A stretch of 64,000 bases of DNA. Source: an uncultured Lachnospiraceae bacterium (lineage in GTDB: Bacteria > Bacillota > Clostridia > Lachnospirales > Lachnospiraceae). The position numbers and the translations under genes were made by a program. The first letter of the stretch is position 1. Every line of letters begins with the position of its first letter. The notes under the pieces were generated by a model that worked only from the letters and a program-made list of their open reading frames with translations, was not told where the DNA came from and did no database searches. Below, piece by piece: positions 42,369 through 62,597 of the stretch. Where the stretch lies: positions 1-64,000 of the forward strand of contig CAMWJF010000001.1 of the NCBI GenBank assembly GCA_947174505.1, in the 5' to 3' direction.

Positions 42369-42687
42369 TCGTAATATCTTTATCGGCATTTATTATATAT
42401 TGTATAAGCCTTTTTGTCAATTTTCTAAAACATCATGAGTGAATGGAGCGTTTATCCTGATTTGTCCCATTTTCTCGGCTTTTCCAACAAAAAAATCTTT
42501 GCTCATCTGTAAATCCCATATGTTTCCTTATGCTTTTTGTGGTCGGATAAATGGTCAGATCAACAGCAGCATATACCGACTGAATGATGACAGTTCGGGC
42601 GACTGACCCTCAGGGATACCCATTCTAATTGTGGTCAGACCGCCGGCCAGATGAAAATGCCCTGTATTTTCAGGGGATTCAGAGCGT

Positions 42688-42714
42688 TTTCGCAGAATAT
42701 ACAGTTCTGCGAAA
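42688..42714. repeat. Palindrome, copy 2 of the TTTCGCAGAA element
   Basis: TTTCGCAGAA-N7-TTCTGCGAAA is perfect. Including the loop it is inverted relative to copy 1, 335 bp to the left. It lies 87 bp before the chosen start of the TnpB-like gene. It could be an operator for that gene or an end structure of the element. Confidence 0.75.
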
Positions 42715-42800
42715 CGGCAGACAGTCTGGCCGTATGCCGCAGCATTCATGGGAAGGCGGCGGTGGAAAGGATTACAGGCTGTTGGATATGGTGGGAGGAT

Positions 42801-44165
42801 ATGCAGAGGGAAAGCCGCTTGACGAAGATAGCATGGCAGTACACGGAGCTGCTTCCACAGGAGGCCATGGATTTTCTAAGAGGAATCGCTGAGGACTACG
42901 CGAAGGTGAAGGGCAGTGTCTATGAGCGGTATTCCGGGATTGCAAGTCTCGGGCAACTGGCCTCCCTGTATGACATTATGACGCAGATGCGCCATTGCGG
43001 CTTACGGGAGCAGCTTGGGCTGCCTTCCGTGTATTATGAGCTTGCGGTACGGGACGCTGTTACGGATATCAAGGGTATGTGGGGGATGTTGAAGAATAAA
43101 ATACGCACCCTCATTTCAGCCAATGAGAATCTGAGTGATGATGACAGACTGTATCTGAGGACGGTTTTACGTCTTGATTCGGTGTATGCCGCTATTCTGA
43201 ATCGGACGGAATATCCGATGCCGGAGAAGGCGGCGGGACTTGAAATTGATACAGAGCGCTTAAACAATCTTCTGAGGAGACTTACCAGAAGGCATCTGGT
43301 TAAGCCTGTGCCGTCGGGTAAGGCGGACAGCTTCTGTGTGTCGCCGGGAGGCTATTCCTATAGGGACGGGGCGCTATGCCTTGTTTCGAGAGTGCCCAGA
43401 AAGAGGATCAGACTTCCGCTCAAGGACGGCAGGACATGCGACAGACAGCTCCGGATCTGTATCAGAGAAAACGATGTCGCGATTGCGCTTCCGGTCAATA
43501 TGAAGATGCGGCGGCACGAGGATTTTCAGAGCACCATTTTTGTGCATCTCGGATACCGCGATATGTGTACGCTGTCTTCCGGGACAGTCTACGGGGAAGG
43601 GCTGGGTGAGCTGGCGTCCGCCAGAAGCGAACGGCTGATGGAGAAAAACCGGGAGCGTGGCAGAATGCGGAACAGTTACCGAAAAAGCATGGCCGAAGGA
43701 GATGGGAAAAAGGCGGCGGACATAGAGGCGAATAACCTGGGAGGCATCAAGTATGACCGCCGGAAGAAAAAGGAGCAGGCGCAGATTGAGTCCTATATCA
43801 ATGCCGGAATCAATCGGATGCTGGAGACGGAAAAGCCGGGCACAATCGTTACGACAAGGCCCGTTACCATTAACAAAAAGAAATCAGGATATAAACAGGC
43901 AAACAGGAGGATTTCGGAAAGCCCGCAGGGATATGTCCGCAGGAGACTTTTGCTGAAATGCCAGATAAACGGCATTACCCTTGTGGAGATCTCCTCCAAA
44001 GGAACGGGAAATATCTGCTCTGCATGTGGGGCAGAGGGAAAGCGCCTGAAGGCAGGATTCGTTTGTGAGAGCTGCGGTTTTCAGAGCTCTACCGCTCTGA
44101 ACGGGGCGAGAAGAATAGAACAGTTATACAGAGAATCGCAGGCGGAGAAAAAAGAACAGGGGTAA
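42801..44165 (+). CDS. TnpB-family protein with all three RuvC catalytic residues replaced
   Basis: A 454-residue TnpB/IS605 OrfB homologue. Numbered from the longer frame (ATG 42651), the RuvC-I strand reads IFVHLGYRDM with His299 where Asp is required. The RuvC-II strand is TIVTTRP, with Thr402 in place of Glu. The RuvC-III end is TALNGARRI, with Ala482 in place of Asp. The zinc ribbon is intact (C456, C459, C472, C475), and basic helices for RNA and DNA binding remain. It should be unable to cut DNA but may still bind guide RNA and DNA, like described TnpB-derived repressors (TldR). No TnpA is present. GGGAGGAT precedes ATG 42801. Confidence 0.8.
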   Translation: MQRESRLTKIAWQYTELLPQEAMDFLRGIAEDYAKVKGSVYERYSGIASLGQLASLYDIMTQMRHCGLREQLGLPSVYYELAVRDAVTDIKGMWGMLKNKIRTLISANENLSDDDRLYLRTVLRLDSVYAAILNRTEYPMPEKAAGLEIDTERLNNLLRRLTRRHLVKPVPSGKADSFCVSPGGYSYRDGALCLVSRVPRKRIRLPLKDGRTCDRQLRICIRENDVAIALPVNMKMRRHEDFQSTIFVHLGYRDMCTLSSGTVYGEGLGELASARSERLMEKNRERGRMRNSYRKSMAEGDGKKAADIEANNLGGIKYDRRKKKEQAQIESYINAGINRMLETEKPGTIVTTRPVTINKKKSGYKQANRRISESPQGYVRRRLLLKCQINGITLVEISSKGTGNICSACGAEGKRLKAGFVCESCGFQSSTALNGARRIEQLYRESQAEKKEQG

Positions 44166-48703: not shown

Positions 48704-49186
48704 ATGAAAAAAATTGGCGGCGGACTATTAGTAGGAAGCGTTATTGTGATAAGTTTTACGGGAATATGGAAAATCATTGTGAAGGCAGGGACAACAATAG
48801 CGGAGAAAAATAAGCTGGTGGATAAATATAAGTTGTATTTTTGCCTGAATAATAAGTGGATATCGCTAAAAGAATCTAATAAGCGATTGAGCCGATATTT
48901 TGTTGAAAATCAAATAAAAAGTATAGCGGTGTATGGTTTGGGAGATGTCGGACTAAATTTGTGTGACGAGATCATGAAAGACGGGATAGAAGTCAAATAT
49001 GCATTTGACGGCAATTTGATCAGATATGAGTCTCTTATTCCGATAAAAAGGCTGGAGGATGAGGTGGAGGAAGTAGACGCAGTTGTCGTAACGATCCCGG
49101 ATGAATTTGAGGCAATAAAAAATAACATAGGGGTAAAGTTTTCCTGCCCCATTATTTCTATAGACGACATTGTATACAGCGTTTAG
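48704..49186 (+). CDS. Small Rossmann-fold protein with N-terminal membrane helix
   Basis: A 160-residue protein. A hydrophobic helix (residues 5-28) is followed by a basic linker and a Rossmann-like core: IKSIAVYGLGDVGLNLCDEI with a GxGxxG loop, then YAFDGN and VDAVVVTIPDE. The core resembles the N-terminal nucleotide-binding half of NeuD/PglD proteins and the modules at 61.7 kb and at the very end of the window. It lacks an acyltransferase part. No function can be assigned. Strongly AT-rich, like its neighbours. Confidence 0.6.
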   Translation: MKKIGGGLLVGSVIVISFTGIWKIIVKAGTTIAEKNKLVDKYKLYFCLNNKWISLKESNKRLSRYFVENQIKSIAVYGLGDVGLNLCDEIMKDGIEVKYAFDGNLIRYESLIPIKRLEDEVEEVDAVVVTIPDEFEAIKNNIGVKFSCPIISIDDIVYSV

Positions 49187-49196
49187 GGAGCATGAT

Positions 49197-50159
49197 ATGA
49201 AAGACAGAGAATTACTGATTGCTGTTCCGACGGCAAATCATCCTAAGCTGATTATGTTTTATCTGGCAAAAACGCTGGATGCTGCGTTGAAACATAATAT
49301 AGATATTTGTGTTTATGATGCCAGTAGCAATGATGAAACCGAGAAAATTGTGCAGAAGAGAATTTCGCAGGGATACCATAATCTGAAATATAAAAAGTAT
49401 CCGGAAAATACGTTGCTGGAGAATAGATGTGAAGATATATATGTTAATTCTGGATACGGTTATGTGTGGCTGTGTGGTGATGGCTGTGTATTGAACATTG
49501 ATAAAAATATAGATATTGTCCGAAATGAAATTGGCAAAAAAAAGGATTTAATATGTTTTGGGTGTTTTGGCAATGCGTCAGTATATGCGGATGGATATAA
49601 AGAATATACGAACTCCGTTGAATTTTGTAAAGAATGCTTTACACCCTCCACATATTTTGGTGGTGTTATATTAAAAGGCAGCTTGGTCAGCAAAGATTTA
49701 TTTGATTACTGCAGAAAACGATATTGGGAGCATGCCGTACCTGCCGTTTATTATGAATTGTTTAAAGACGGTAATATATCTGCAACATATATCCATCAGA
49801 ATTTTTGTGAATCGAGTGTATATAAAAAACATAGTGTAGCTCAAAAGCAGAGAAGGGATATATATGCTTTTGCACAGCTTTTTACTGAAACGATTCGGAA
49901 ATTACCCGATATATATAATCCTGTAAAAAAGGATCTGGAAAAAGCGCTGGGACATACGACAGGAATGTATAGCTGGTGTAATTTGTGGCTGATGAGAGCT
50001 GAAGGAAACTTAAATCTAAAAATATATATTCAAAATAGAAAATTTTTAAAAATTGCTTCAGATACAAAGCAGTGGCTATATATCCTAATAATATTGTGTC
50101 CAGCAAAGGTGGCCAGACGGATTGCGCTATATCTGGGGAATTTTATATATGATATTTGA
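49197..50159 (+). CDS. GT-A-like glycosyltransferase, tandem paralogue 1
   Basis: A 320-residue protein starting LLIAVPTANHPKLIMFYL, with DICVYDASSNDETEKIV and a YVWLCGDGCVLN segment that holds the metal-binding acidic residues of a GT-A fold. A PAVYYELFKDGNI motif in the middle is shared with the next gene. ATG 49197 has AGGGAG 6 nt upstream and is preferred over ATG 49170. It is likely a sugar transferase of the AT-rich cassette. It aligns along its length with the next protein, showing a tandem duplication. Confidence 0.72.
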   Translation: MKDRELLIAVPTANHPKLIMFYLAKTLDAALKHNIDICVYDASSNDETEKIVQKRISQGYHNLKYKKYPENTLLENRCEDIYVNSGYGYVWLCGDGCVLNIDKNIDIVRNEIGKKKDLICFGCFGNASVYADGYKEYTNSVEFCKECFTPSTYFGGVILKGSLVSKDLFDYCRKRYWEHAVPAVYYELFKDGNISATYIHQNFCESSVYKKHSVAQKQRRDIYAFAQLFTETIRKLPDIYNPVKKDLEKALGHTTGMYSWCNLWLMRAEGNLNLKIYIQNRKFLKIASDTKQWLYILIILCPAKVARRIALYLGNFIYDI

Positions 50160-50180
50160 AAACAGCAGGGATTGAAGACT

Positions 50181-51119
50181 ATGGATAAACAAGAATTATT
50201 GATTGCGATTCCCACGAAGAACCATCCTAAATATATTATGTACTATTTATCTAAGATTTTAGATGATGCGCTACGCTTAAATATTGACATTCTTATTTTA
50301 GATGCAAGCGATGATGATGCAACGGAGAAAACTGTAGAAGGCAGAACAAGAGGGGGATACAGAAACCTCTACTATAAGAGATATCCCCGGACAGCGACAT
50401 TGGAGGAAAGACTGATAGATGTATATGTAGGCACCGGGTATAAATATGTATGGCTGTGCGGAGACGGTGTTGTCGTAAATTTAAGAAAGGACATCAGTAT
50501 CGTAGAAAACGAAATACAAAAAGGAAGGCAAATTATTGTATTTGGTCAGTATAAAATAAATGACAAAGAGTATGTCGAATATACAAGCTCCATCGATTTT
50601 TGCCTTGATTGTTTTTCACAAAACACATATTTTGGTTCGGTCATTCTGGAGGCCGATTTAGTTACGAAGGAGTTGTTTGTGTACTGTCAGAAAAAGTACC
50701 TAGAACATGCAGTGCCTGCTTTATATTATGAATTGTTTAGAGATGGGAATATCCGAGCTGTTTATATTTATCAGTCACTCTTTTTTGATGCAAATCCATA
50801 TAAGAAGAATTCCATAGCCATGAAGGAGGGAAGAACAATATATGCGTTTGCTCATTTGTTTTATGAAACAATTCAGAAATTGCCTGACTGCTATAACATA
50901 ATCAAAAAGGAGCTTTACAGATGGCAGAAGGCAATGTATGATTGGGGACATTTGTGGGCAATGCGTGCAAACGGAAATTTGAATTTAAGAATTTATTGGA
51001 GGGAGAGAAAATATTTGCGGCTGTCTTCTGACAAAAAAGGAATCGTATATTTGCTGATAGTGTTATGTCCACATAAGTTGGCGAAAGCTATAGCACTTAT
51101 AGAGGATAGAATATGGTAG
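50181..51119 (+). CDS. GT-A-like glycosyltransferase, tandem paralogue 2
   Basis: A 312-residue paralogue of the preceding protein. It shares LLIAIPTKNHPKYIMYYLSK, DILILDASDDDATEK, YVWLCGDGVVVN and PALYYELFRDGNI, with a similar C-terminus (WAMRANGNLNLRIY). The ATG at 50181 is chosen; a TTG at 50172 is also in frame. Its end overlaps the rfbH-like gene by 7 bp. The two paralogues probably add related or identical sugars at successive positions; inferred. Confidence 0.72.
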   Translation: MDKQELLIAIPTKNHPKYIMYYLSKILDDALRLNIDILILDASDDDATEKTVEGRTRGGYRNLYYKRYPRTATLEERLIDVYVGTGYKYVWLCGDGVVVNLRKDISIVENEIQKGRQIIVFGQYKINDKEYVEYTSSIDFCLDCFSQNTYFGSVILEADLVTKELFVYCQKKYLEHAVPALYYELFRDGNIRAVYIYQSLFFDANPYKKNSIAMKEGRTIYAFAHLFYETIQKLPDCYNIIKKELYRWQKAMYDWGHLWAMRANGNLNLRIYWRERKYLRLSSDKKGIVYLLIVLCPHKLAKAIALIEDRIW

Positions 51120-52498
51120 CGGGTAAGGAAGTAGCAACAATGAAAGGAAAGCATGTTGTGGAAAAGAATGAACTGTATAACGAAATTATAGAAAAGGTCA
51201 GGGAGTATTACCGAATATGTCATATTGATAATAAGGAGTTTGAACCCGGAGACAGGATTGCATATTCGGGACGTGTATACGATGAAGAGGAAATGGTTAA
51301 TCTTGTTGACGCAGCCTTGGAATTCTGGCTTACACAGGGAAGATACTCGGCGGAATTTGAAACAGGGTTGGCAAAATTTGTTGGTACAAAATACTGTACA
51401 CTTGTAAATTCGGGTTCATCTGCAAACCTAGCGGCATTTATGGCGCTCACGTCAGATGATTTGGGTGAGCGAAAAATCAGCAGAGAAGATGAGGTAATAA
51501 CTGTTGCGGCAGGATTTCCGACAACGATATCTCCGATTGTTCAATATGGCGCTGTTCCCGTATTTATCGATGTGACAATTCCAGATGGCAATATAGATGC
51601 AGGAAGGCTTGAGGAGGCTGTTTCTTCTAAGACGAAGGCAGTTTTTCTGGCACATACACTGGGGAATCCGTTTGATATACAGAGGGTGAAAGATTTTTGT
51701 GATAAATACCATCTGTGGCTTATTGAAGATAATTGTGATGCTCTTGGATCGCGGTATTTTTATAATGGGGAGTGGCGCAGGACAGGTACGGTAGGAGATA
51801 TTTCTACACATAGTTTTTACCCGCCCCATCACATTACGCTGGGTGAGGGAGGAGCTGTTTGCACAAGCAATCCTTTATTGTATAAGCTGATTAATTCTTA
51901 CAGGGATTGGGGGAGGGACTGTTGGTGCAGATCCGGCGTGGATGATACATGCAAACATAGATATACACAGCAGTTTGGTGAACTGCCTTACGGATATGAC
52001 CACAAATATGTATATTCACACTTCGGCTATAATCTGCAGGCAACAGATCTGCAGGCGGCCGTCGGGTGTGCGCAGCTAAATAAGCTGGAGAGATTCGTAA
52101 TTGAAAGAAAGGAAAACTGGGCTTATTTAAGAAATGGTCTGGATGAAGTAAAAGACGGTATTATTTTGCCGGAGAAACGTGCCGATGCGGAGCCGAGCTG
52201 GTTTGGGTTCCTTATGACGGTAAAAGAAGATGCGGATTTTACCAGACTGGAACTGGCACAGTTCCTAGAAGACAAAAATATTCAAACGAGATATCTGTTT
52301 GCTGGTAATTTTTTAAAGCAACCCTGTTTTGACAGGATGAGGGAGCAGAATAGGGGGTACAGGGTTCTCGGAACGCTTCAAAATACGGATATTATTATGA
52401 ACAATTCCCTTTGGATCGGGGTATATCCGGGAATGAACAAAGCAAAGCTGGATTATATGATTCGGATGATTAAGGATTTTGTAAAAAGCAGGGCGTGA
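51113..52498 (+). CDS. rfbH: CDP-4-keto-6-deoxyglucose 3-dehydrase (RfbH/DdhC, E1)
   Basis: A 461-residue DegT-fold enzyme that removes the C3 hydroxyl of CDP-4-keto-6-deoxyglucose. The usual PLP lysine is replaced by His: in SFYPPHHITLGEGG, His239 stands where aminotransferases have Lys, the hallmark of E1. The RDCWCRSGVDDTCKHR stretch holds the Cys residues expected for its [2Fe-2S] cluster. The E3-type flavoprotein reductase partner (DdhD/AscD) is not in this window. Start 51113 has GAGGA at good spacing; 51140 is an alternative. rfbG and rfbF lie 5-8 kb downstream. Confidence 0.93.
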   Translation: MVAGKEVATMKGKHVVEKNELYNEIIEKVREYYRICHIDNKEFEPGDRIAYSGRVYDEEEMVNLVDAALEFWLTQGRYSAEFETGLAKFVGTKYCTLVNSGSSANLAAFMALTSDDLGERKISREDEVITVAAGFPTTISPIVQYGAVPVFIDVTIPDGNIDAGRLEEAVSSKTKAVFLAHTLGNPFDIQRVKDFCDKYHLWLIEDNCDALGSRYFYNGEWRRTGTVGDISTHSFYPPHHITLGEGGAVCTSNPLLYKLINSYRDWGRDCWCRSGVDDTCKHRYTQQFGELPYGYDHKYVYSHFGYNLQATDLQAAVGCAQLNKLERFVIERKENWAYLRNGLDEVKDGIILPEKRADAEPSWFGFLMTVKEDADFTRLELAQFLEDKNIQTRYLFAGNFLKQPCFDRMREQNRGYRVLGTLQNTDIIMNNSLWIGVYPGMNKAKLDYMIRMIKDFVKSRA

Positions 52499-52507
52499 GT
52501 GGTAAGA

Positions 52508-53566
52508 ATGCAGAAAATAATCAGAGAAGATATAGAGCGGATATGTGAAGAAGAACTTCCCTGGCACACATTGGGGAACAAACGGATTCTCGTAACCGGC
52601 TCCAGCGGCTTTTTAGGGACATATATCGTATTGTCCCTGATGGAATGTAATAGAAGATATAACACTGATATTACGGTACATGCGCTTTGCCGGAGCAAGG
52701 AAAAAGCATATGCGAAATTTAAAGAGTGCTGGGATAATAGTCATTTGCAGTTTATATTTCAGGATGTTTGTGAAGACATAGATGACAAGTATAAAAGTGA
52801 TTTGATTATTCATGCGGCAAGCCCGGCTAACCCATATATTATTCAAAAGCAGCCATATGATGTAGTGAAAGCAAATGTTTTTGGCTATAGCCGTTTGTTG
52901 GAAAAAGCACGGGAGTGGGGCACGAAGGAACTGATCCTTTTTAGCTCTAGTGCGGTGTACGGTTATTCCGCACCGCAGAGTGGTGTAGATGAGGATTACA
53001 GGGAACCGATAGATTTCACTCAGGTTAAGGATGTGTACTGTCTTTCAAAACAGATGTGTGAAATGATGACGGTATGTTTCGAGAAAACCGGTGACGTGGA
53101 AGTCAAAGTGCTGAGACCATTCGTAGTATATGGTCCGGGAGATGATTTGACAAATAAAAAGGCGATGACAGACTTTCTAAATGATTGTCTGGCGGGGAGA
53201 AATATTGTACTCAAATCAAAAGGCGATGCAATAAGATCGTATATTTACATAGGGGATGCAATTAGGGCCTTTTACTATATTCTGCTGAAGGGATATAGGG
53301 GGGCTTACAATATTTCGAGCGAAAAAAATGTATATAGCATCAGAGAAGTGGTTCGGTTCTTCTGTGAATGCAGCGGGGATATTGAGATTGAATACTTAAT
53401 TGGAAACGAAGACTATTTAAATAATAGAACACAGGTTATGATTGGTAAAAATAATAAAATCAGGGAACTCGGATGGTCGGAAAAGATCAATTTGAAAGAG
53501 GGAATTGCACGCACAATTAATTGGGGTAAAGGGATTAGTGGAAAAAAAGAGGGGTTGTATGAATAA
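52508..53566 (+). CDS. NAD-dependent epimerase/dehydratase-family sugar enzyme
   Basis: A 352-residue extended SDR. Marks: RILVTGSSGFLGTYIV, LIIHAASPANPY, FSSSAVYGY and YCLSKQ with the Tyr-x3-Lys pair (YCLSK). The N-terminal 25 residues form an extra helix. In this context it is a good candidate for the final 4-ketoreductase or side-chain ketoreductase of the CDP-dideoxysugar route (the AbeRfbJ/AscF/YerF position), or an epimerase. GTG 52499 is an alternative start. The downstream aldolase gene overlaps by 8 bp. Confidence 0.82.
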   Translation: MQKIIREDIERICEEELPWHTLGNKRILVTGSSGFLGTYIVLSLMECNRRYNTDITVHALCRSKEKAYAKFKECWDNSHLQFIFQDVCEDIDDKYKSDLIIHAASPANPYIIQKQPYDVVKANVFGYSRLLEKAREWGTKELILFSSSAVYGYSAPQSGVDEDYREPIDFTQVKDVYCLSKQMCEMMTVCFEKTGDVEVKVLRPFVVYGPGDDLTNKKAMTDFLNDCLAGRNIVLKSKGDAIRSYIYIGDAIRAFYYILLKGYRGAYNISSEKNVYSIREVVRFFCECSGDIEIEYLIGNEDYLNNRTQVMIGKNNKIRELGWSEKINLKEGIARTINWGKGISGKKEGLYE

Positions 53567-54590
53567 AGAAATCTTTTTGTTAGACTGCACATTGCGCGAT
53601 GGCGGATTTGCCTTGGAAGGCGAAGCGAAACAGCAGTTTACTTATTCGGAAGAAGCGAGAACCAGTATAGCGCAAAATCTGACCGACGGTTTTGTGGATA
53701 TGATAGAGCTGGGTACGATTGAAATAGGAGAAATGAATAAGAGAGGATTTTCTGTTTTCCCGGATATGGATGAAATATCGGCATTGATACCCTTAAATGC
53801 CCGTAGCAATCAGATATATGCAGTGTTTTTTAGGGGACCGGATATTCCGCTTGATTTATTGCCAGATTGGGATGAGACGCGGTGTCGTCTTATCAGACTT
53901 GGCGTTCGGTATTCCGAAATGGAAAAGTCGCTGGAGTATTGCAGAAAATTATGTGAAAAAGGTTATTTTGTTTCAATCCAGCCGATAGTGACCATGCGAT
54001 ATACGGATGAAGAGCTGGACCGGGTTATTAAAGCGGCAAATGAGATGAATGCGTATGCAGTTTATTTCGTAGACTCATATGGTGCAATGTACCGTGAAGA
54101 TGTGGTAAGGATATTTAAAAAATACGACGAAGGATTACATCCTGATATAAAAATCGGCTTTCATGCGCACAACAACATGGGTCTGGCATCTTCAAATGTA
54201 ATGCATATGCTTTCAGAAAATAGCAGCAGGGATGTTATTATAGATGCCTGCTGTATGGGTATGGGGCAGGGAGCTGGTAATCTGCAGACAGAAGTGATTG
54301 CCGCGTATCTGAATAAAAAATACAACAAAAATTATGGTTTTGCTGAAATCTTGAGAGTATGCGACAGTGTTGGAAAATTTTGGAAGGATAACTTATGGGG
54401 ATACTCTGTGGCAGCAATGATTCCGGCGGTTTATGGTGTGGCATATAAATATGGACTGGTGCTTAGGAACGAATATAACTGTTCCTATGAAGATATTGCC
54501 AGGATATTGCAGCGTATTTCGGATGAAATGAAGCACCGTTATACGAAGAATAATTTAGAAATATTGATGAAGGAATTAGATGTCAAATGA
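53559..54590 (+). CDS. HMGL/DRE-TIM family aldolase
   Basis: A 343-residue TIM-barrel enzyme of the HMG-CoA lyase/isopropylmalate synthase/4-hydroxy-2-oxovalerate aldolase superfamily. Metal-site motifs are LDCTLRDGGF near the start and GFHAHNNMGLASSN; the MGMGQGAGNLQTE loop follows. The family makes or breaks C-C bonds next to a 2-oxo or acyl group. It overlaps both neighbours (8 bp and 4 bp) and precedes a TPP enzyme, so it probably supplies or processes the carbon unit used for sugar branching. It is not part of the known yersiniose set. Confidence 0.82.
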   Translation: MNKEIFLLDCTLRDGGFALEGEAKQQFTYSEEARTSIAQNLTDGFVDMIELGTIEIGEMNKRGFSVFPDMDEISALIPLNARSNQIYAVFFRGPDIPLDLLPDWDETRCRLIRLGVRYSEMEKSLEYCRKLCEKGYFVSIQPIVTMRYTDEELDRVIKAANEMNAYAVYFVDSYGAMYREDVVRIFKKYDEGLHPDIKIGFHAHNNMGLASSNVMHMLSENSSRDVIIDACCMGMGQGAGNLQTEVIAAYLNKKYNKNYGFAEILRVCDSVGKFWKDNLWGYSVAAMIPAVYGVAYKYGLVLRNEYNCSYEDIARILQRISDEMKHRYTKNNLEILMKELDVK

Positions 54591-56272
54591 AGGTATCGCA
54601 GTATTTGGTGAAAAAACTGGTTGAATATAAGGTTACGGATGTTTTTGGAATCCCCGGCGGAGTTATACTGGATTTCATTTATGAACTGGACAAGGACGAA
54701 AATATAGACGTTCATCTCAGTTATCACGAGCAGGCTGCGGCTTATGCAGCCTGCGGATATGCGCAAAGATCGGGAAGACTTGGAGTAGCGTACGCTACCA
54801 AAGGTCCCGGAGTGACTAATATGATGACTGCGATAGCGGAAGCGTATTATGATTCCCTGCCGGTGTTATATATAACGGCTCATTCACAGAAAGCCTTGCG
54901 GCGGGAATTGCGGATCGAGGAAGAGCAGGAAATGGATCACGTGAGACTGGTGCGTGATATAACCAAATACGCAAAAAGAATCGATGCAGTTGGCGAGGTG
55001 GCGGAAGCTGTAAATGCCGGGTGTAGGGCGGCTGTTTCGGGCAGAAAGGGCCCGGTGCTGCTGGATTTTTCTGCAAGAATACTTAAAAGTGAAATAGAGT
55101 TTCCGGGGGAACATGAAGGTAAACCCGATAGTGCAGATCATGAGGCACCGGATGTCTGCATTAACAATATATTGACAAGCTTGCGGGAGTCTGCAAGACC
55201 GGTGTTTTTATTAGGCGACGGAGTAAGACTGTCTAAAACAGAAGAAACAATAGCAAAGTTATCCGAAAAGATGGATATTCCAATGCTATCCAGTAGATTT
55301 TCTCAGGATATTGTCGGCGGGCATGAGAACTATTTTGGATATATAGGGAGTCATGGATTAAGATATAGTAATTTTATTCTGTCAAAAACCGATTGCATCA
55401 TTTCATTCGGAAACAGAATGGCATTTCAGACAGAATCTGAGAGTTTTAAACCTATTGTTGAAGGGGCTAAAATCATTCGCCTTGATATTGATGAACAGGA
55501 GCTACAAAGGGATATTCCGGGTTCATCCGGCTACCGTGTTGATCTTAAGGAACTGATTCCGGAACTAGTGCAGACCGCAGTCCCACGTAAATCATTTGAG
55601 TGGTTGCGCATATGCCATAAATTGAAGGACGAGTTGAAAGATTATGATATGAATCCTGCGATTATGAAACTTTCGTGTCTGATAGATATGTTAAACGAGG
55701 ATGAAACACTGGTTTGTGATATAGGAAATAATGAGTTGCTGGTCTCAAGAGCGTATGCCGTTTCCGGCAATGGAAAAAACCTGATGCACTCTAAGGCATT
55801 TAAGACAGTCGGTTCCGCCATAGGAAAGGCGATCGGAGCGTATTATGCGAGTCGGAAAAGGGTTATGTGTATAGCCGGGGATCAGGGAATGCAGTTTAAT
55901 ATACAGGAGTTACAATACATAAGCAGTAATCAACTGCCTATAGTAATTGTTATCTGTAACAACAATGCTTCTGAAATGTTGAAAGACAGTGAGCGTAAAC
56001 AAGGTTATACATATGAACTGCATACGACATTAAACAGCGGTTACAGCCATCCGAATTTTAAAAAAATCGCGGATGCGTACGGTATAAAGTATATGGCAGC
56101 CAGACCATCCGCTGATGGAACGATTGAGATGCTGGACAATGAACCGCAGATAATTGAAATATTTCTTGACGGACAATGCGGGATACAGCAGCATCTGCCA
56201 AAGGGATATCCGTGTCAAATGTTTCTTCCTCAAATTAGCAAGGATCTTTACAGTTATTTGGATAATTTATAG
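54587..56272 (+). CDS. Acetolactate-synthase-like TPP enzyme 1
   Basis: A 561-residue thiamine-diphosphate enzyme with the three usual domains. The catalytic Glu is E48 in YHEQAAAYA. The cofactor motif is AGDQGMQFNIQE followed about 25 residues later by CNNN. The GPGVTNMMT loop is also present. YerE, a homologue, decarboxylates pyruvate and adds a two-carbon unit to C4 of a CDP-4-keto-3,6-dideoxyhexose. The genes around it (rfbH, rfbG, rfbF) make such an acceptor. Its start overlaps the aldolase stop as ATGA. The true 2-oxo acid donor is not known. Confidence 0.85.
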   Translation: MKVSQYLVKKLVEYKVTDVFGIPGGVILDFIYELDKDENIDVHLSYHEQAAAYAACGYAQRSGRLGVAYATKGPGVTNMMTAIAEAYYDSLPVLYITAHSQKALRRELRIEEEQEMDHVRLVRDITKYAKRIDAVGEVAEAVNAGCRAAVSGRKGPVLLDFSARILKSEIEFPGEHEGKPDSADHEAPDVCINNILTSLRESARPVFLLGDGVRLSKTEETIAKLSEKMDIPMLSSRFSQDIVGGHENYFGYIGSHGLRYSNFILSKTDCIISFGNRMAFQTESESFKPIVEGAKIIRLDIDEQELQRDIPGSSGYRVDLKELIPELVQTAVPRKSFEWLRICHKLKDELKDYDMNPAIMKLSCLIDMLNEDETLVCDIGNNELLVSRAYAVSGNGKNLMHSKAFKTVGSAIGKAIGAYYASRKRVMCIAGDQGMQFNIQELQYISSNQLPIVIVICNNNASEMLKDSERKQGYTYELHTTLNSGYSHPNFKKIADAYGIKYMAARPSADGTIEMLDNEPQIIEIFLDGQCGIQQHLPKGYPCQMFLPQISKDLYSYLDNL

Positions 56273-56288
56273 AAGGGAGAGATAGGGA

Positions 56289-56843
56289 ATGGGTGAATTT
56301 ATATTTAGCGAGTCAGATTTGGAAGATGTTGTACTGATATCTCCAAAGCAGTTTTCGACTGAAAGCGGCAGCTTCGAAAAGAATTACGAAAAGAGCATAT
56401 ATGAGTCAAACGGCATTACTTTTGAGATCACAGAGGAATATAAAATTGTGTCGGACAGAGGAGTATTGCGGGGGATTCATTTTCAAGATCCCAAACCGCA
56501 GTCGCGGCTGGTTACAGTAACGGAAGGCGAAGCGATGGTGGTTGTTGTTGATCTGAGAAAGGATTCCGGTCAGGTAGGGAAATGGAAATCATATCTGGTA
56601 AATAAGCAGAATAAACTCTGCTTACTGATTCCGGAGGGATTCGGTCTGGGAACACTTACGATGGAAGATAGGACAGTAATTGAGGTAAAGTGCAGCGGAA
56701 TGTATTTTGGAGAGAACAGTTCCGGAATCCGATACGATGATGAAGATTTAAATATTAATTGGGGCGCAGAAAAAATTGACGGTATTCATATTTCGGAAAA
56801 AGATAAAAAGCTGATGTCTTTCCGCGAGTATATGGGACAGTAA
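56289..56843 (+). CDS. RmlC-like cupin sugar epimerase
   Basis: A 184-residue single-domain cupin. VLRGIHFQDPKPQSRLVTV has the RG-x-H-FQ block with the catalytic His of RmlC-type 3,5-epimerases, and MVVVVDLRKDS matches the next conserved strand. CSGMYFGENSSGIRYDD lies at the usual Tyr region. Given CDP-sugar genes around it, an AscE-like C5 epimerase of CDP-4-keto-3,6-dideoxyglucose is more likely than dTDP-rhamnose synthesis. AGAAGGGAGAGATAGGG precedes the ATG. Confidence 0.82.
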   Translation: MGEFIFSESDLEDVVLISPKQFSTESGSFEKNYEKSIYESNGITFEITEEYKIVSDRGVLRGIHFQDPKPQSRLVTVTEGEAMVVVVDLRKDSGQVGKWKSYLVNKQNKLCLLIPEGFGLGTLTMEDRTVIEVKCSGMYFGENSSGIRYDDEDLNINWGAEKIDGIHISEKDKKLMSFREYMGQ

Positions 56844-56887
56844 ATGTCTGTACTGCAACCGGCTGCAGAAGAAAGGTAGAAGGAACG

Positions 56888-57946
56888 TTGCGATATAATA
56901 ATTTACATAGCTTCTATAAGGGCAAAAAGGTATTAGTTACAGGACATACAGGATTTGTGGGTTCTTGGTTATGCCTGGTACTTGATTACATGGGAGCGGA
57001 AGTAACTGGCTTTTCGTTAGAGGAAGAAAGCAATTCTCTGTACGAAAAAATAAAGAAGGATTTTAAACTGGTAAATTATTATGGTGACTTGAGAAATATA
57101 GATGAAATACGCAAATGCATGGAAATAAGCCAACCGGATATCGTATTTCACTTGGCGGCTTTCGGATTTATAAAAGAGTGCAGAAATGATCCATATACCG
57201 CTTTTTTTTCCAATGTAATGGGAACCGTGAATTTGTTTGAAGTTATCAGGGAAAATCAAAGCGTTAAAGATATTGTGGTGGCGAGCAGCGATAAGGTATA
57301 TCGAAACGATGACACAGCGACTCAATTATTTAATGAAGAGAACCCGTTAGGCGGAAGTGATCCGTATTCCAGCAGTAAAACCTGTGAAGATCTGATTGTG
57401 CAATCGTATTATGATACTTATTTAAAGATCCGCGGTAAGAGTGTAACAATACTTCGTCCGAGCAATATTGTAGGAGGAGGCGACCATAACGTTTCCAGAT
57501 TAATACCGTCTATTATATGCAGTATAGAGAACAATCAGGAAATAGAAATCAGGAATCCGGAGGCTGTTCGTCCTTGGCAGTACATACTGGATGCGGTTGA
57601 CGCCTATGTGGTGACAGCAGCGAAGGCGTGGAATACCGGCGCCATACAAATTTATAATATCGGACCGACGCCGGAGAATATAAAAAGTGTGGGCGAAATA
57701 GTTGAGATTTTGATAAAGTCGTCCGGGAAAACTGGGAGTGTGCATTTAGCGGTTTCCGATTCGCAGTCATCAATAGAGAAGAGATATTTGGGACTGGATA
57801 TAGAAAAAATAAAAGAAGAGATAGGGTGGGAACCAAATAAAGGTTTGGAGCAAACGATTGGCGATACATATGATTTTTATAAACAGTGGGAACATGGGAA
57901 TTCCTATCAGTTATGCCGGAAGTATATAGAAAAATATTATGAATAA
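56888..57946 (+). CDS. rfbG: CDP-glucose 4,6-dehydratase
   Basis: A 352-residue SDR that converts CDP-glucose to CDP-4-keto-6-deoxyglucose. Marks: KKVLVTGHTGFVGSWL, HLAAFGFIKECRNDP, SSDKVY and YSSSK with the Tyr-Lys pair, and VRPWQYILDAVDAY, typical of RfbG. Length fits. The start is a TTG at 56888 after AGAAGGAA; no ATG fits the N-terminal strand. The TPP enzyme 2 gene follows within 20 bp. Confidence 0.92.
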   Translation: MRYNNLHSFYKGKKVLVTGHTGFVGSWLCLVLDYMGAEVTGFSLEEESNSLYEKIKKDFKLVNYYGDLRNIDEIRKCMEISQPDIVFHLAAFGFIKECRNDPYTAFFSNVMGTVNLFEVIRENQSVKDIVVASSDKVYRNDDTATQLFNEENPLGGSDPYSSSKTCEDLIVQSYYDTYLKIRGKSVTILRPSNIVGGGDHNVSRLIPSIICSIENNQEIEIRNPEAVRPWQYILDAVDAYVVTAAKAWNTGAIQIYNIGPTPENIKSVGEIVEILIKSSGKTGSVHLAVSDSQSSIEKRYLGLDIEKIKEEIGWEPNKGLEQTIGDTYDFYKQWEHGNSYQLCRKYIEKYYE

Positions 57947-57964
57947 TCGTGCGAAAGGAAAATT

Positions 57965-59716
57965 ATGACAACTTCAGAGTACATTTTTAAATTTTTATAT
58001 GAATGCGGATGCAAGAATGTTTATATGGTGTCCGGAAGTTCGGCTATGTGGCTGACAGATGCTTTACAGCGCAATAAAAATCTGAATGCGGTATGTTGTA
58101 ATCATGAACAGGCGGCAGCCATGTCGGCGGACGGATATGGCAGAGTCAACGGGATACCCGGTGCGTGTCTGGTCACAATAGGTCCGGGTGCGACAAATGC
58201 GGTTACAGGAGTGGCGCAGGCATATCTGGACTCGTCCCCTATGTTTATTATTTCAGGACAGGCTAACTCAAGATTGCTGAAGTATGCCTCAGAGACAGGG
58301 ATAAGGCAGCAGGGCTGCCAAAGTATAAATTTAGAGCCGATGGTGAGACCCATTACAAAATATTTTGCTGCCGTAATGGACGCAGATGATATACCGCAAA
58401 TAATGCATGACGCATATTATGCGGCCATGGAGGGAAGACGGGGACCAGTGTGGATTGACGTTCCGATTGATATTCAGAATCAACAGGTATCGGAAACATG
58501 TATTGCACAAGCTTCCAAAAGGCAAATTGTCAGTACGCCGTTTCATACTTCGGATGTGGATAAGGTGGTCGAATTAATTAGAAATGCCCAAAAACCGTTA
58601 ATTTTAGCGGGATATGGAATTAGAAGTTCGAATGCCGTATCGATAATGGGGAAAATTTGTGAGATATGTGATATACCTGTTGTCACATCCAGAGGCGGGC
58701 TGGATATTATTGCGTCGGACTCGCCGTATTATGTGGGGCGTCCGGGAAGCTATGGGGATAGGGCATCTCATTTTGCGATACAGGAAGCGGATCTGCTATT
58801 GATTCTGGGTTCAAGGCTGTCTATTTCTACTATAGGCTATTATCCGGCAAAGTTTGGTAAAAATGCGATAAAAGTTATGGTAGATATAGATGAAAAAGAA
58901 CTGAATAAAGAGGAAGTGCCAGTTGCATACAAAATAAGGGCGGATTTATCGGAATTTCTTGAAGCCTTATATGAAAAACTGAAAAATAGAAAATTATTAC
59001 ACAGTGACTGGTTAAAGCATTGTATGGAATATAAGCAACTGTATCCAACCGTATCTCCAAGCTATAAGTTAGAGGAGCCGTTGAATGAGTATTATGTAAC
59101 AAGCATCATTTCTGAATGTGCTCCTGAATCTGCCAATATTATTGTGGATACCGGAAGTGTATGCAACATAGTTTCACAAAGCTGGAAAATAAAAATGGAT
59201 CAAAGATATCTGATATCGGGAGGGCTTTCCTGCATGGGATTTTGGGCAACGGCAATGGGAGCATTTCAAAAGGACAGAGCATTGATTGCGTTATCTGGAG
59301 ATGGAAGCACCCAGATGAATATACAGGAATTTGCGACAATTAAATACTATCAGATTCCTGTTAAGCTGTTTATATATAACAATAATGGCTATATGCTGAT
59401 CAGACATAATCAACATAACTATATGAATGACAGATTTCTGGGAGTCGGACCAGACAGTGGAGTTCAGACACCGAATTTTTGCAAGGTGGCTGATGCATAC
59501 GGCATAGAAGCGGTCTATATAGACAATTTGGTGGAACTAAGGGATAAGGTTAAATATGTTATGGAATCCGACCAGCCTGTAATATGTGAGATTATATGTC
59601 AGGAATTTGCGCCCATCGTGCCGAGAATAGCGTCAAGAGTTATGCCGGACGGTTCTTTGAAGGCAGCCGAATTTGAAGACTTATTTCCTTTTTTAGATGA
59701 GGAGGGAATTGGATGA
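57965..59716 (+). CDS. Acetolactate-synthase-like TPP enzyme 2
   Basis: A 583-residue thiamine-diphosphate enzyme, a distant paralogue of the one at 54.6 kb. The catalytic Glu is E48 in NHEQAAAMSADGYGR. The cofactor motif is SGDGSTQMNIQE followed by YNNNGY. GPGATNAVTGVAQAYLDSSP matches the acetolactate synthase fold closely. It is also YerE-like in context. The presence of two such enzymes suggests two carboligations, two donors, or a heteromer. Its stop overlaps rfbF as ATGA. Confidence 0.86.
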   Translation: MTTSEYIFKFLYECGCKNVYMVSGSSAMWLTDALQRNKNLNAVCCNHEQAAAMSADGYGRVNGIPGACLVTIGPGATNAVTGVAQAYLDSSPMFIISGQANSRLLKYASETGIRQQGCQSINLEPMVRPITKYFAAVMDADDIPQIMHDAYYAAMEGRRGPVWIDVPIDIQNQQVSETCIAQASKRQIVSTPFHTSDVDKVVELIRNAQKPLILAGYGIRSSNAVSIMGKICEICDIPVVTSRGGLDIIASDSPYYVGRPGSYGDRASHFAIQEADLLLILGSRLSISTIGYYPAKFGKNAIKVMVDIDEKELNKEEVPVAYKIRADLSEFLEALYEKLKNRKLLHSDWLKHCMEYKQLYPTVSPSYKLEEPLNEYYVTSIISECAPESANIIVDTGSVCNIVSQSWKIKMDQRYLISGGLSCMGFWATAMGAFQKDRALIALSGDGSTQMNIQEFATIKYYQIPVKLFIYNNNGYMLIRHNQHNYMNDRFLGVGPDSGVQTPNFCKVADAYGIEAVYIDNLVELRDKVKYVMESDQPVICEIICQEFAPIVPRIASRVMPDGSLKAAEFEDLFPFLDEEGIG

Positions 59717-60489
59717 AGGTTGTAATTTTAGCAGGAGGAAGGGGCTCCAGATTAAGCGAAGAAACACATCTTAAGCCGAAACCAATGGTAGAAATCGGGA
59801 GCAATCCCATACTTTGGCATATTATGAAAATCTATTCGTATTATGGGTTTAATGATTTTGTCATTTGCTGTGGATATAAGGGTGAGATGATAAAGGACTA
59901 TTTTATAAATTACTATATGCGCACATCTGATTTAACGATTGATATGAGCAATAATTCGGTTGAAGTACATAAAAAAGCAGACGAGCCCTGGAAAGTCACA
60001 CTTGTGGACACCGGTGCGGAAACAAATACGGCAGGGCGGGTTATGGGGGTTAGAAAATATTTGGATAGCGGACCGTTTATGTTGACATATGGTGATGGTA
60101 TTTCAAATGTGGATATTAATTCAGTTCTAAAATTTCATAGACAAAATGGTAAAGTTGCTACCATCACTGCGGCAAAACCGGCGGGCAGATGGGGCACTAT
60201 CCAGATTTCTGAGAGTAACGGCACAGTAGAAACCTTTCAGGAAAAAAATAAAACAAAGGAGTCATGGGTTAATTCGGGGTTTGCTATATTTGAACAAAAA
60301 ATATTTGATTATCTGACTGATGAGAGCCAGCAACTTGAAAAGGAACCCTATGATAAACTCGTTGCAGATGGAGAAATAGATGCATATAAGCATCTGGGCT
60401 TTTGGCATGCCATGGATACAGTCAATGATCGCGCCGTTTTAGAAGAGTATTGGAATAGCGGTAAAGCACCGTGGAAATTATGGATGTGA
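59713..60489 (+). CDS. rfbF: Glucose-1-phosphate cytidylyltransferase
   Basis: A 258-residue nucleotidyltransferase making CDP-glucose from CTP and glucose-1-phosphate. AGGRGSRLSEETHLKPKPMV is the CTP-binding signature, and the LTYGDGISNVDI, RWGTIQ and WVNSGF motifs are typical of RfbF. It is the first enzyme of the CDP-dideoxyhexose route encoded in this cassette. The start overlaps the previous stop. Confidence 0.95.
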   Translation: MKVVILAGGRGSRLSEETHLKPKPMVEIGSNPILWHIMKIYSYYGFNDFVICCGYKGEMIKDYFINYYMRTSDLTIDMSNNSVEVHKKADEPWKVTLVDTGAETNTAGRVMGVRKYLDSGPFMLTYGDGISNVDINSVLKFHRQNGKVATITAAKPAGRWGTIQISESNGTVETFQEKNKTKESWVNSGFAIFEQKIFDYLTDESQQLEKEPYDKLVADGEIDAYKHLGFWHAMDTVNDRAVLEEYWNSGKAPWKLWM

Positions 60490-60522: not shown

Positions 60523-61620
60523 ATGATATTAAGGGCAAAGACAAAAAATCTGTTTTCTGGAAAGGAATTGACGTTAAGGCAAAAGGAGAATTCTAAATTA
60601 AATTTGACAGAACTTGAAGACGGGAAAACGATACTACAGTCTTATCCAAGGAGATTGGTGCTGGAATTAACAAATGCATGCAATTTGAACTGCGTAATGT
60701 GCGGACGAAATGCGGCAAATTTTAAACCGACTGTTTTCGACATGGAAAACTTTTACAGTTTGGAACCACTGATGGATGTAGCGGAAGAGGTAACGCTGAT
60801 GGGGTGGGGGGAACCAACGATTCATCCTCATTTCATAGAAATGCTTGAAATTATAAATAGGCATAGCGCGAGAAAATATTTCTGTTCAAACGGGATGAAC
60901 CTAAAGAAGATTAAGAATGCAATCTTTGATTATAATGTAGATGTTTTTGCGATTAGCCTTGACGGAGCGACAGAGGAAACCAATTCAAGGATTAGGCGTG
61001 GTTCAAATATTAATGAAATTACGAAAGATTTGAAGGATATTGTAAGAATGAAGAAGGAGCGCGGATTGAAATATCCGTGGATTAACTTTGTTTTCTGCGC
61101 TATGAATTCCAATATTCATGAACTGCCGGAACTTATTCGGTTAGCGGCTGAAATAGGTATTGAGGAGGTTAAGGTTGTTTATCTTACCGTTTTTGAGGAA
61201 ACTTTATTGAATGAGACTTTGTGGGGACATGAGGATAAAGTTAAGGTTTTTTTTGAAGAAGCAATAACAGTCGGTGAAGAGTTGGGAATCATATTAAAAT
61301 TGCCTCACTATATAGGTGAAGATGAGGCGGGTGATAAATTACATAAGGACTGCTTTGTAACTTGGAGAGACTTTTTTGTGGGTTCGGACGGTTATGTGAG
61401 ACCGTGCATGTCAACGCCTATTCAGTTCTTTGAATATGATAGAGATAAAGATTTTGTAGAGATGTGGAATGCTTTGGAGTATCAAAAATATAGGGAAAAC
61501 GTAAATGATCAGGCTGCAATGGATTTCCCGTGTAAAAGATGCTATCAATCATCACATTGTAACTGGAATTTGAGACAGTCATTTATTCAGGTAGGGGAGA
61601 TGTTTTCGCCGGATTGGTAA
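60523..61620 (+). CDS. Radical SAM/SPASM-domain protein
   Basis: A 365-residue protein. The radical SAM cluster motif is C53-x3-C57-x2-C60 in NACNLNCVMC, followed by MGWGEPTIHP (glycine-rich SAM site). The C-terminus has a SPASM-like set of Cys residues: one in KDCFVTW, one in YVRPCMSTP, and CKRCYQSSHC. Such proteins modify peptides or sugars by radical chemistry. Being next to rfbF and an acyltransferase, it may dehydrate, epimerise or methylate-prepare a sugar of this glycan, as DesII-type enzymes do, but the substrate is unknown. Confidence 0.83.
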   Translation: MILRAKTKNLFSGKELTLRQKENSKLNLTELEDGKTILQSYPRRLVLELTNACNLNCVMCGRNAANFKPTVFDMENFYSLEPLMDVAEEVTLMGWGEPTIHPHFIEMLEIINRHSARKYFCSNGMNLKKIKNAIFDYNVDVFAISLDGATEETNSRIRRGSNINEITKDLKDIVRMKKERGLKYPWINFVFCAMNSNIHELPELIRLAAEIGIEEVKVVYLTVFEETLLNETLWGHEDKVKVFFEEAITVGEELGIILKLPHYIGEDEAGDKLHKDCFVTWRDFFVGSDGYVRPCMSTPIQFFEYDRDKDFVEMWNALEYQKYRENVNDQAAMDFPCKRCYQSSHCNWNLRQSFIQVGEMFSPDW

Positions 61621-61670: not shown

Positions 61671-62597
61671 GTGTTTGCTTTCGAAAAATTATGCATTGAT
61701 AAACTGGATAGAATGCTGATGTATGTAAACGGCAGGAATATCTATATCTGGGGCGCGGGAAATGGCGGCGCTATACTTGAAAAAGTGCTATGTGACCATC
61801 ATGTTCCAGTGGTCGGATTTATAGATAGGCGGGCCGAAGAAATGGAGGAATATCTTGGTTATCCTGTAAAAATTTCAAGGGAAACGAACCCAAGGCGCGA
61901 TTACATTATCGTTGCGGTTATAGGATATGATAGCGGAATATCGGATGAACTGGAGCTGTTGGGTTATACGGTGAAGGATTGCTTTTACGTGTCAGAAAAT
62001 ACAGCCTGTCATACCGAGGATATTATGTACAGAGGGTGCAGGGTAGGGAGGTATACATATGGATATCGGGAATTACTAGAATATTATCCCATTGCAGAGT
62101 CGATTGGGAGATACTGTTCCATTAACGGAACTGCTAAAATTTGGAATAACCATTCATTAGACTGTGTAACGACGAGCCCATTTCTGGATAATTTAAGCTT
62201 TTATGCATGGGAACAACATGACATACGATGGGGATATATAAAAAAATATGGTAGACACAGAGACAATGCAGCATTTGAGAATAGCGAGTTAAGGGATAAC
62301 AGACCGGTGGTTATTGGAAATGATGTTTGGATCGGGGCAAATGTCTGTATTCTTCCAGGGGTTCGTGTCGGGGATGGGGCCGTGATCGCTGCGGGCGCAG
62401 TAGTAACGAAAGATGTCGCACCGTATGCAATTGTGGGAGGCGTTCCGGCTAAGGTGATTCGATATCGGTTTAGTCCGGAGGAGATACATACACTTCTTAA
62501 AATCAGGTGGTGGGACTGGTCGGTTGAAAAGGTGGAAAGAAATATTGAATTATTATATGATCCAGTCAGATTTATGACTACGTTTTTAAATGTGTAG
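61671..62597 (+). CDS. NeuD-like Rossmann domain fused to CatB-type O-acetyltransferase
   Basis: A 308-residue protein. Residues 15-110 form a nucleotide-binding module ([29 protein letters not shown]). The rest is a left-handed beta-helix acetyltransferase: [25 protein letters not shown] with the catalytic His, [16 protein letters not shown] and [16 protein letters not shown], then the KIRWWDWS tail typical of CatB/Vat enzymes. It probably O- or N-acetylates a sugar of the glycan with acetyl-CoA. The start is GTG 61671, 5 nt after GGGGGT. Confidence 0.85.

Follow-up and report, generated by a model that had tools for sequence, protein, structure and literature searches.

We analyzed a 64,000-nucleotide stretch of DNA from an uncultured Lachnospiraceae bacterium (assembly GCA_947174505.1, contig CAMWJF010000001.1, positions 1 to 64,000), referred to here as the window, and examined a row of genes in it that may direct the synthesis of a branched cytidine diphosphate (CDP) deoxysugar. 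Positions 51113-60489 are a single tight operon of eight genes, all on the + strand. In order, these are rfbH, encoding a CDP-4-keto-6-deoxyglucose 3-dehydrase (51113..52498, start possibly at 51140); a gene for an extended short-chain dehydrogenase/reductase (SDR), the probable reductase of a branch ketone (52499..53566); a gene for an HMGL-type (DRE-TIM) aldolase, the proposed maker of a 2-oxo acid donor (53559..54590); TPP1, for a thiamine diphosphate (ThDP) enzyme (54587..56272); a gene for an RmlC-like cupin (56289..56843); rfbG, for CDP-glucose 4,6-dehydratase (56888..57946); TPP2, for a ThDP carboligase of the JanthE type, that is, YerE-like (57965..59716); and rfbF, for glucose-1-phosphate cytidylyltransferase (59713..60489). 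From rfbH to rfbF the intergenic gaps are 0, -8, -4, 16, 44, 18 and -4 bp. A preliminary description of this DNA had listed these genes and their close packing, and all eight are indeed present, in one orientation and between -8 and 44 bp apart. The G+C content of individual operon genes is 35-43%, compared with 46-55% in 2-kb steps over the first 46 kb of the window.

All three rfb products exceeded the cut-offs of their NCBIfam models, RfbH with 698.7 bits (cut-off 423), RfbG with 328.3 bits against CDP_4_6_dhtase (278.45), and RfbF with 380.9 bits against G1P_cyt_trans (300.25). The RfbF/RfbG/RfbH set for a CDP-3,6-dideoxyhexose pathway, as the preliminary description had it, is thus upheld. 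RfbG carries the motif SSDKVY. RfbH aligned over nearly its full length with the 3-dehydrase structures 3bcx and 3bb8 (E ~1e-145), and it retains both SFYPPHH and RDCWC...C, a CxC...C motif.

The product of the third gene contains an HMGL-like domain that exceeds the Pfam cut-off. Its AlphaFold model had a mean confidence score (pLDDT) of 92.3, and the first 11 Foldseek matches were ten chains of 4-hydroxy-2-oxovalerate-type aldolases and 3dxi, a putative aldolase. The root-mean-square deviation of these top 11 was 9-15 A across some 310-370 columns, a resemblance at the level of fold and family that does not extend to the details of the active site. The best NCBIfam models were pyruvate aldolases, but among the NCBIfam matches listed for this protein none reached its cut-off (TIGR03217, 93.5 versus 286 bits; NF006049, 108.9 versus 229 bits). 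Residues R13, D14, H202 and H204 were invariant in 20 of 20 aligned rows. A search with the protein among plasmids yielded a single record.

TPP1 and TPP2 each contain all three Pfam TPP domains. Against the acetolactate synthase equivalog TIGR00118 (cut-off 538.35) they scored 267 and 340 bits, while two other proteins of the window genome exceeded the cut-off with 728 and 621 bits. Among the 25 NCBIfam models listed for each enzyme, none reached its cut-off for TPP1 or TPP2. The best match of TPP1 among solved structures was 5ahk, which we take to be PpYerE. That of TPP2 was 8rph, named JanthE in the available text of PMC12188165. A 72-row tree placed TPP2 and 8rph in one clade of 58 rows (support 100/99), to which neither acetolactate synthase of the window genome belonged; in a smaller tree a 27-row clade held both TPP2 and 8rph (99/99). 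TPP1 fell into a different clade, together with enzymes from loci L057, L058 and L060 (100/100); it stood beside 5ahk in the smaller tree with weak support (92/59), a grouping absent from the 72-row tree. The motif HEQ, with the catalytic Glu, is present in both enzymes. Across the 72 aligned rows the ThDP motif reads GDG in 63 (TPP2 included), GEG in 4, CDG in 8rph, and GDQ in 4, namely TPP1 and three orthologues. The GEG-motif enzymes are YerE-like and come from rfbH or HMGL loci (L187, L212, L229 and L044). A housekeeping acetolactate synthase role for TPP1 and TPP2 was rejected in view of the scores below cut-off, the two proteins elsewhere in the genome that do pass it and the separate tree positions. 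The claim of two diverged TPP enzymes therefore holds, both lying far under TIGR00118 and TPP2 within the YerE-like JanthE clade.

The SDR (Pfam Epimerase) is of the extended kind, with the motifs YCLSK and SSSAVYG, a site that presumably differs from the active site of a 4,6-dehydratase. Its closest homologue (146 bits) lies between rfbG and rfbH of a locus with HMGL and ThDP genes (L253), although the loci searched were preselected for HMGL or rfbH, so that such neighbours prove little. The cupin exceeds the cut-off for Pfam dTDP_sugar_isom and falls slightly below that of NCBIfam rmlC (146.6 versus 155.75 bits). Its epimerase site is degenerate: the FAHG His is replaced by Leu and the YKC Tyr by Val, both of which are retained in 9 of 9 comparators including 1ep0, and one conserved active-site His is kept. 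An L-hexose formed by the cupin acting as an epimerase is unsupported, since the protein lacks these two residues, and the earlier suggestion of an L-configured hexose is weakened by the same losses.

We compared rfbH loci that had been sampled without regard to the aldolase. In a sample of the class, 36 of 391 genomes contained rfbH and all 36 loci were read, the window among them (it was left out of the class statistics); in a sample of the family, 134 of 397 genomes contained rfbH and 60 loci were read, taken as alternate rows among the first 120 of 141 rfbH rows. A script called genes in the open frames, using bit-score cut-offs of our own choosing, and a gene was counted as found when it lay within the stretch read, at most about 9-10 kb per side, with some stretches stopping at contig ends. 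The aldolase was found in 9 of 21 family-sample loci with a YerE-like enzyme versus 0 of 39 without one (Fisher p 2.0e-5), and in 5 of 15 versus 0 of 20 in the class sample (Fisher p 0.009); these p-values are too small, as the rows are related by descent. A ThDP enzyme was present in all 13 further loci picked for having rfbH and HMGL on one contig, at distances of up to about 8 kb, with wider pairs (e.g. G539, G543, G473 and G709) left out. Within the JanthE-type clade, the aldolase accompanied 25 of 25 rows of one subclade and 9 of 25 of another (11 of 11 and 1 of 17, respectively, when only rfbH-centred rows were counted). Among 80 HMGL-centred loci, 11 had rfbH, and of these 7 had a YerE-like enzyme, 3 a split transketolase and 1 (L116) neither. 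In this gene-neighbourhood search the rfbFGH-ThDP-HMGL set recurred in other genomes; two YerE-like enzymes in one locus, as in the window, occurred in 0 of 73 comparators with a YerE-like enzyme (open frames >300 aa). At the level of gene content, the comparison supports a putative relay from the aldolase to a ThDP carboligase.

The surroundings of the aldolase gene were then tabulated for 123 distinct HMGL loci, including the 13 picked loci and excluding the window, with two duplicates dropped. Forty-seven lay near rfb genes, with a ThDP enzyme in 41 and a CTP_transf_3 gene in 1; in the 76 without nearby rfb genes, a ThDP enzyme was found in 13, CTP_transf_3 in 29, and both in 2. These distributions suggest that the HMGL family makes 2-oxo-3-deoxy acids for two ends, cytidine monophosphate (CMP) sugars or donors for ThDP enzymes. 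The ThDP label was clustered on the HMGL tree, with 10 changes versus 40.8 when shuffled, a figure to which near-copies contribute. Since at least 8 of the 10 changes fall on starred branches, the coupling of ThDP enzyme and aldolase was probably made several times. Twenty of the 47 rfb-associated loci also encode a HAD-type hydrolase close to the aldolase, from which we infer that the aldol product may be phosphorylated.

Several HMGL genes stood out in this table or beside it. The window genome has a second, longer HMGL-type aldolase (L038; G000:C1:175639-176637) near a CTP_transf_3 gene, the type of partner found with CMP sugars. Two HMGL genes flank a GT8 gene ahead of TPP1 in L060 (10001-11071 and 12821-13855), and could serve two rounds of aldol addition. 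In L241 (7296-9959) an HMGL aldolase adjoins a split transketolase with no rfb genes nearby.

A ThDP carboligase fed by the aldolase should be replaceable by one of another class while the rest of the set is kept, and such swaps were seen. In L100 (an Alphaproteobacteria metagenome-assembled genome, MAG), L108 and L131 (a Mailhella MAG), a split transketolase lies between rfbH and the aldolase in place of the YerE-like enzyme (L100:7876-9691; L108:8177-9984; L131:8141-9962). A second, different split transketolase pair lies downstream of the aldolase in these three loci and in L039 (L100:11834-13509; L108:13152-14824; L131:12140-13809; L039:4800-6469), its second half being confirmed by Pfam in L039, L100 and L131 and represented in L108 by an open frame with the same start. 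A DXS-like enzyme (1-deoxyxylulose-5-phosphate synthase family) is encoded near an HMGL-TPP1 pair and rfbG in L057 (13517-15277) and L058 (5045-6811). Six comparators (L039, L057, L058, L100, L108 and L131) therefore carry two ThDP systems around one aldolase: a TPP1-type enzyme plus a split transketolase, a split transketolase twice, or TPP1 plus a DXS-like enzyme. Such paired systems fit either two carboligations or a chain-making step plus a grafting step, and they raise the likelihood of a division of labour between starter making and grafting, whichever enzyme would do which. The doubly modified branch proposed earlier is thus possible, but since the HMGL-TPP1 pair is also found without rfbH, a case can be made for two separate sugars too.

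Our preferred reading, held tentatively and with a little less than even confidence, is that the operon makes a C4-branched CDP-6-deoxysugar, the predicted product, through a relay from aldolase to carboligase. By family assignment, RfbF and RfbG very probably produce CDP-4-keto-6-deoxyglucose and RfbH removes its O3. The HMGL-type aldolase would join pyruvate to an aldehyde, giving a 4-hydroxy-2-oxo acid; a YerE-like ThDP enzyme, most likely TPP2, would decarboxylate this acid and attach the resulting acyl anion at the C4 ketone. This ligation would yield a tertiary alcohol whose branch exceeds two carbons, and the ketone introduced with the branch would be reduced by the extended SDR, in line with what has been proposed for yersiniose. 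As a guess, TPP1 might supply the aldehyde that the aldolase extends, or share in the ligation. According to the available text of PMC12247030, YerE transfers at most C3 chains and prefers pyruvate, and its relatives ErwE and MMAR_2332 prefer 4-hydroxy-2-oxo acids as donors. A 4-hydroxy-2-oxo acid is the product expected of such an aldolase, which fits donor use like that of ErwE and MMAR_2332. The earlier proposal of a branched CDP-deoxysugar pathway with a branch beyond the two carbons of yersiniose is therefore supported, in that the presence of the aldolase in rfbH loci follows that of YerE-like ThDP enzymes and characterised YerE-like enzymes using 4-hydroxy-2-oxo acids exist.

Several observations weigh against this relay. 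No DdhD/RfbI-type reductase partner of RfbH was found among the operon genes or in the genome (94.1% complete), where the sole FAD_binding_6 (PF00970) match is on contig C27 (L170), next to a gene whose product looks like PyrD. At the position of DmpG H21, presumably the catalytic base of that enzyme, the HMGL protein carries Phe, and His occurs there in 0 of 20 aligned rows; the position is variable in the clade of the window protein, with Tyr usual across the wider family. No source of the aldehyde for the aldolase has been identified. TPP2 stands alone on a long branch, in neither of the JanthE-clade subclades, and its exact placement is unsure. No RfbH above cut-off was found in the genomes of L057, L058 and L060 (that of L057 being 97% complete), which carry orthologues of the HMGL-TPP1 pair. 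The aldolase is absent from most rfbH loci with a YerE-like enzyme (12 of 21 in the family sample, 10 of 15 in the class sample) and is thus dispensable for branching as such; on the relay reading, these loci would use a ready-made donor such as pyruvate, by analogy with YerE. Lastly, when rfb genes were tested against ThDP enzymes in phylogenetic pairs, the result was not significant (median p 0.625), for want of informative pairs.

A more ambitious form of the relay, possible but in our view unlikely, is an assembly line with two carboligases. One ThDP enzyme would make a starter, to which the HMGL aldolase would add pyruvate; the second ThDP enzyme would attach the lengthened chain to CDP-4-keto-3,6-dideoxyglucose, and the resulting branch would exceed the known ones in length or in branching. 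The six comparators would follow the same logic with split transketolases or DXS-like enzymes, and the HMGL proteins encoded in surface-glycan loci would form a family with the general task of building chains, their 2-oxo acids being passed on to a CMP-transferase in the case of ulosonic acids and to a ThDP carboligase in that of branched sugars.

The HMGL-TPP1 pair raises the alternative that the window makes two sugars, with RfbF and RfbG shared: HMGL and TPP1, perhaps with the cupin, would branch CDP-4-keto-6-deoxyglucose, and RfbH, TPP2 and the SDR would make a yersiniose-like CDP-3,6-dideoxy sugar. We give this perhaps one chance in a few. The orthologous pair in L057, L058 and L060 (HMGL 43-47% identical) stands beside rfbG, with rfbF too in L057 and L060, and neither the stretches read nor, as noted, the genomes contain an RfbH above cut-off. 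The two ThDP enzymes belong to different clades, and some rfbFGH loci have just one labelled ThDP enzyme, of the TPP1 type in L156 and L200, both without HMGL, and of the TPP2 type in many others. Set against this, the window genes form one overlapping row, L039 unites a TPP1-type enzyme and HMGL with rfbF, rfbG and rfbH as a single set, and the genome of L059, the source of a fourth HMGL orthologue, carries rfbH on another contig. TPP1 may thus accept a 3,6-dideoxy or a 6-deoxy sugar, and the window may yield either a single sugar or a pair.

It is improbable, though worth weighing, that the HMGL protein is instead a Claisen-type synthase joining an acyl-CoA to a 2-oxo acid, or that its product is used elsewhere, for example in a separate ulosonic acid. 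Isopropylmalate and homocitrate synthases, which also belong to the DRE-TIM family, appear further down the Foldseek list, and the CTP_transf_3 genes near HMGL in 29 of the 76 loci without nearby rfb genes suggest CMP-ulosonates there. However, pyruvate aldolases or a putative aldolase fill the first 11 Foldseek ranks and supply the best NCBIfam models, and near rfb genes the balance is reversed, with CTP_transf_3 in 1 of 47 loci and ThDP enzymes in 41.

The full picture of the preliminary description, a single doubly modified branch on an L-hexose with the cupin as an ascarylose-like 5-epimerase and both carboligases acting in turn, appears very improbable: two ThDP enzymes and a cupin do share one operon, and other HMGL loci have two ThDP systems, but the cupin lacks the FAHG His and YKC Tyr that all nine comparators keep. 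We can hardly credit an ordinary 3,6-dideoxyhexose operon in which acetolactate synthase-like enzymes lie by chance, for although general models give both ThDP enzymes that label, their scores are far under the cut-off, which two further proteins of this genome do exceed; the trees place TPP1 and TPP2 apart from these proteins, and the rfbFGH-ThDP-HMGL set to which both enzymes belong recurs in other genomes.

The gene row extends upstream through two genes on the + strand, GTa (49170..50159) and GTb (50172..51119), separated by 12 bp; GTb overlaps rfbH by 7 bp. GTa, a GT2-like glycosyltransferase gene 56% identical to GTb in its product, has a weak match to Pfam Glycos_transf_2, under the cut-off. 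A Pfam scan of GTb gave no match, and its AlphaFold model is of low confidence (pLDDT 63.8), with GtrB, PcManGT and TarP as the top Foldseek matches (E ~1e-6). We regard GTb as glycosyltransferase-like and both proteins as candidate glycosyltransferases. Homologues of GTa/GTb were found in 2 of 207 loci searched, in both cases fused to the HMGL aldolase, with two such domains in L039 and one in L108; both are rfbFGH loci with ThDP enzymes. From this fusion elsewhere, GTa and GTb would be expected to transfer the sugar to a surface glycan.

Downstream on the + strand, a radical SAM/SPASM protein (60523..61620; Pfam Radical_SAM and SPASM) is encoded 33 bp past rfbF, followed after 50 bp by a hexapeptide acetyltransferase-like protein (61671..62597; Pfam Hexapep). 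The top NCBIfam model for the former is a tungsten cofactor maturase, far under its cut-off. Farther upstream, a 504-aa open frame (42651-44165) with a C-terminal CxxC stretch has the appearance, judged by eye, of a TnpB-like transposase. Beyond the downstream end of the window (L037:13352-15184; G000:C1 ~73-75 kb) lie CTP_transf_3-like and NeuB-like synthase genes, as judged by eye from their translations; a nonulosonic acid may therefore be a further product of this surface locus.

Clustering of the aldolase would provide a genomic rule, by which an aldolase predicts a long hydroxylated branch and its absence a short one. It also points to candidate donor-making enzymes, to possible alternative carboligases (split transketolase and DXS-like) and to candidate glycosyltransferases for sugars that would be surface structures on gut bacteria of the window's family. 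More than 200 YerE-like enzymes came from a gene-cluster survey, most with no known sugar structure (available text of PMC12247030). A literature search found no published link of HMGL-type aldolases to branched sugars or ulosonic acids, within a coverage that left out Steitz 2022 and Krug 2024, which may describe the aldolase. Under the same limit it found no published description of the carboligase-class swap, the aldolase-glycosyltransferase fusion or the paired ThDP systems.

Longer-branched CDP sugars and their carboligases are already known, and to call the pathway new, as was done earlier, is too strong where the principle is concerned, given erwiniose and caryophyllose. Yersiniose A (YerE plus a reductase, in Yersinia) shares with the window the RfbF/G/H-type steps, a YerE-like ligation and a reductase. 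YerE donors, however, do not exceed C3, and an aldolase, present in the window, is not mentioned for YerE in the available text of PMC12247030. The erwiniose pathway (ErwE, Pectobacterium atrosepticum), as described in that text, has the CDP-4-keto-3,6-dideoxyglucose acceptor in common and a YerE-like enzyme preferring 4-hydroxy-2-oxo acids. It differs in having one described carboligase, whereas the window belongs to a Clostridia-class genome and has an extra, second ThDP enzyme and a cupin. Caryophyllose (MMAR_2332, Mycobacterium marinum) bears a long polyhydroxylated C4 branch on a 3,6-dideoxyhexose, according to the available text of PMC5706390, and is in this respect like the sugar predicted here; its carboligase has a donor preference like that of ErwE (PMC12247030, same portion), in a phylum different from that of the window.

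Among the individual enzymes, JanthE (8rph) is the closest solved structure to TPP2 and lies in the same clade, with CDG at the motif that reads GDG in TPP2 and GDQ in TPP1. The window aldolase shares its fold, metal ligands and Arg with 4-hydroxy-2-oxovalerate aldolases of the DmpG/BphI type, but it lacks the H21 His, falls under the NCBIfam cut-offs, and has no acylating dehydrogenase among the neighbours scanned. Split-gene transketolases of the miharamycin and amipurimycin pathways have been proposed to branch keto sugars, and a cluster survey found 13 split transketolases that may act on ketones (available text of PMC12247030). All 13 are said to come from Streptomycetes, whereas the split transketolases of L100, L108 and L131 lie in rfbFGH-HMGL loci, including those of Alphaproteobacteria and Mailhella MAGs.

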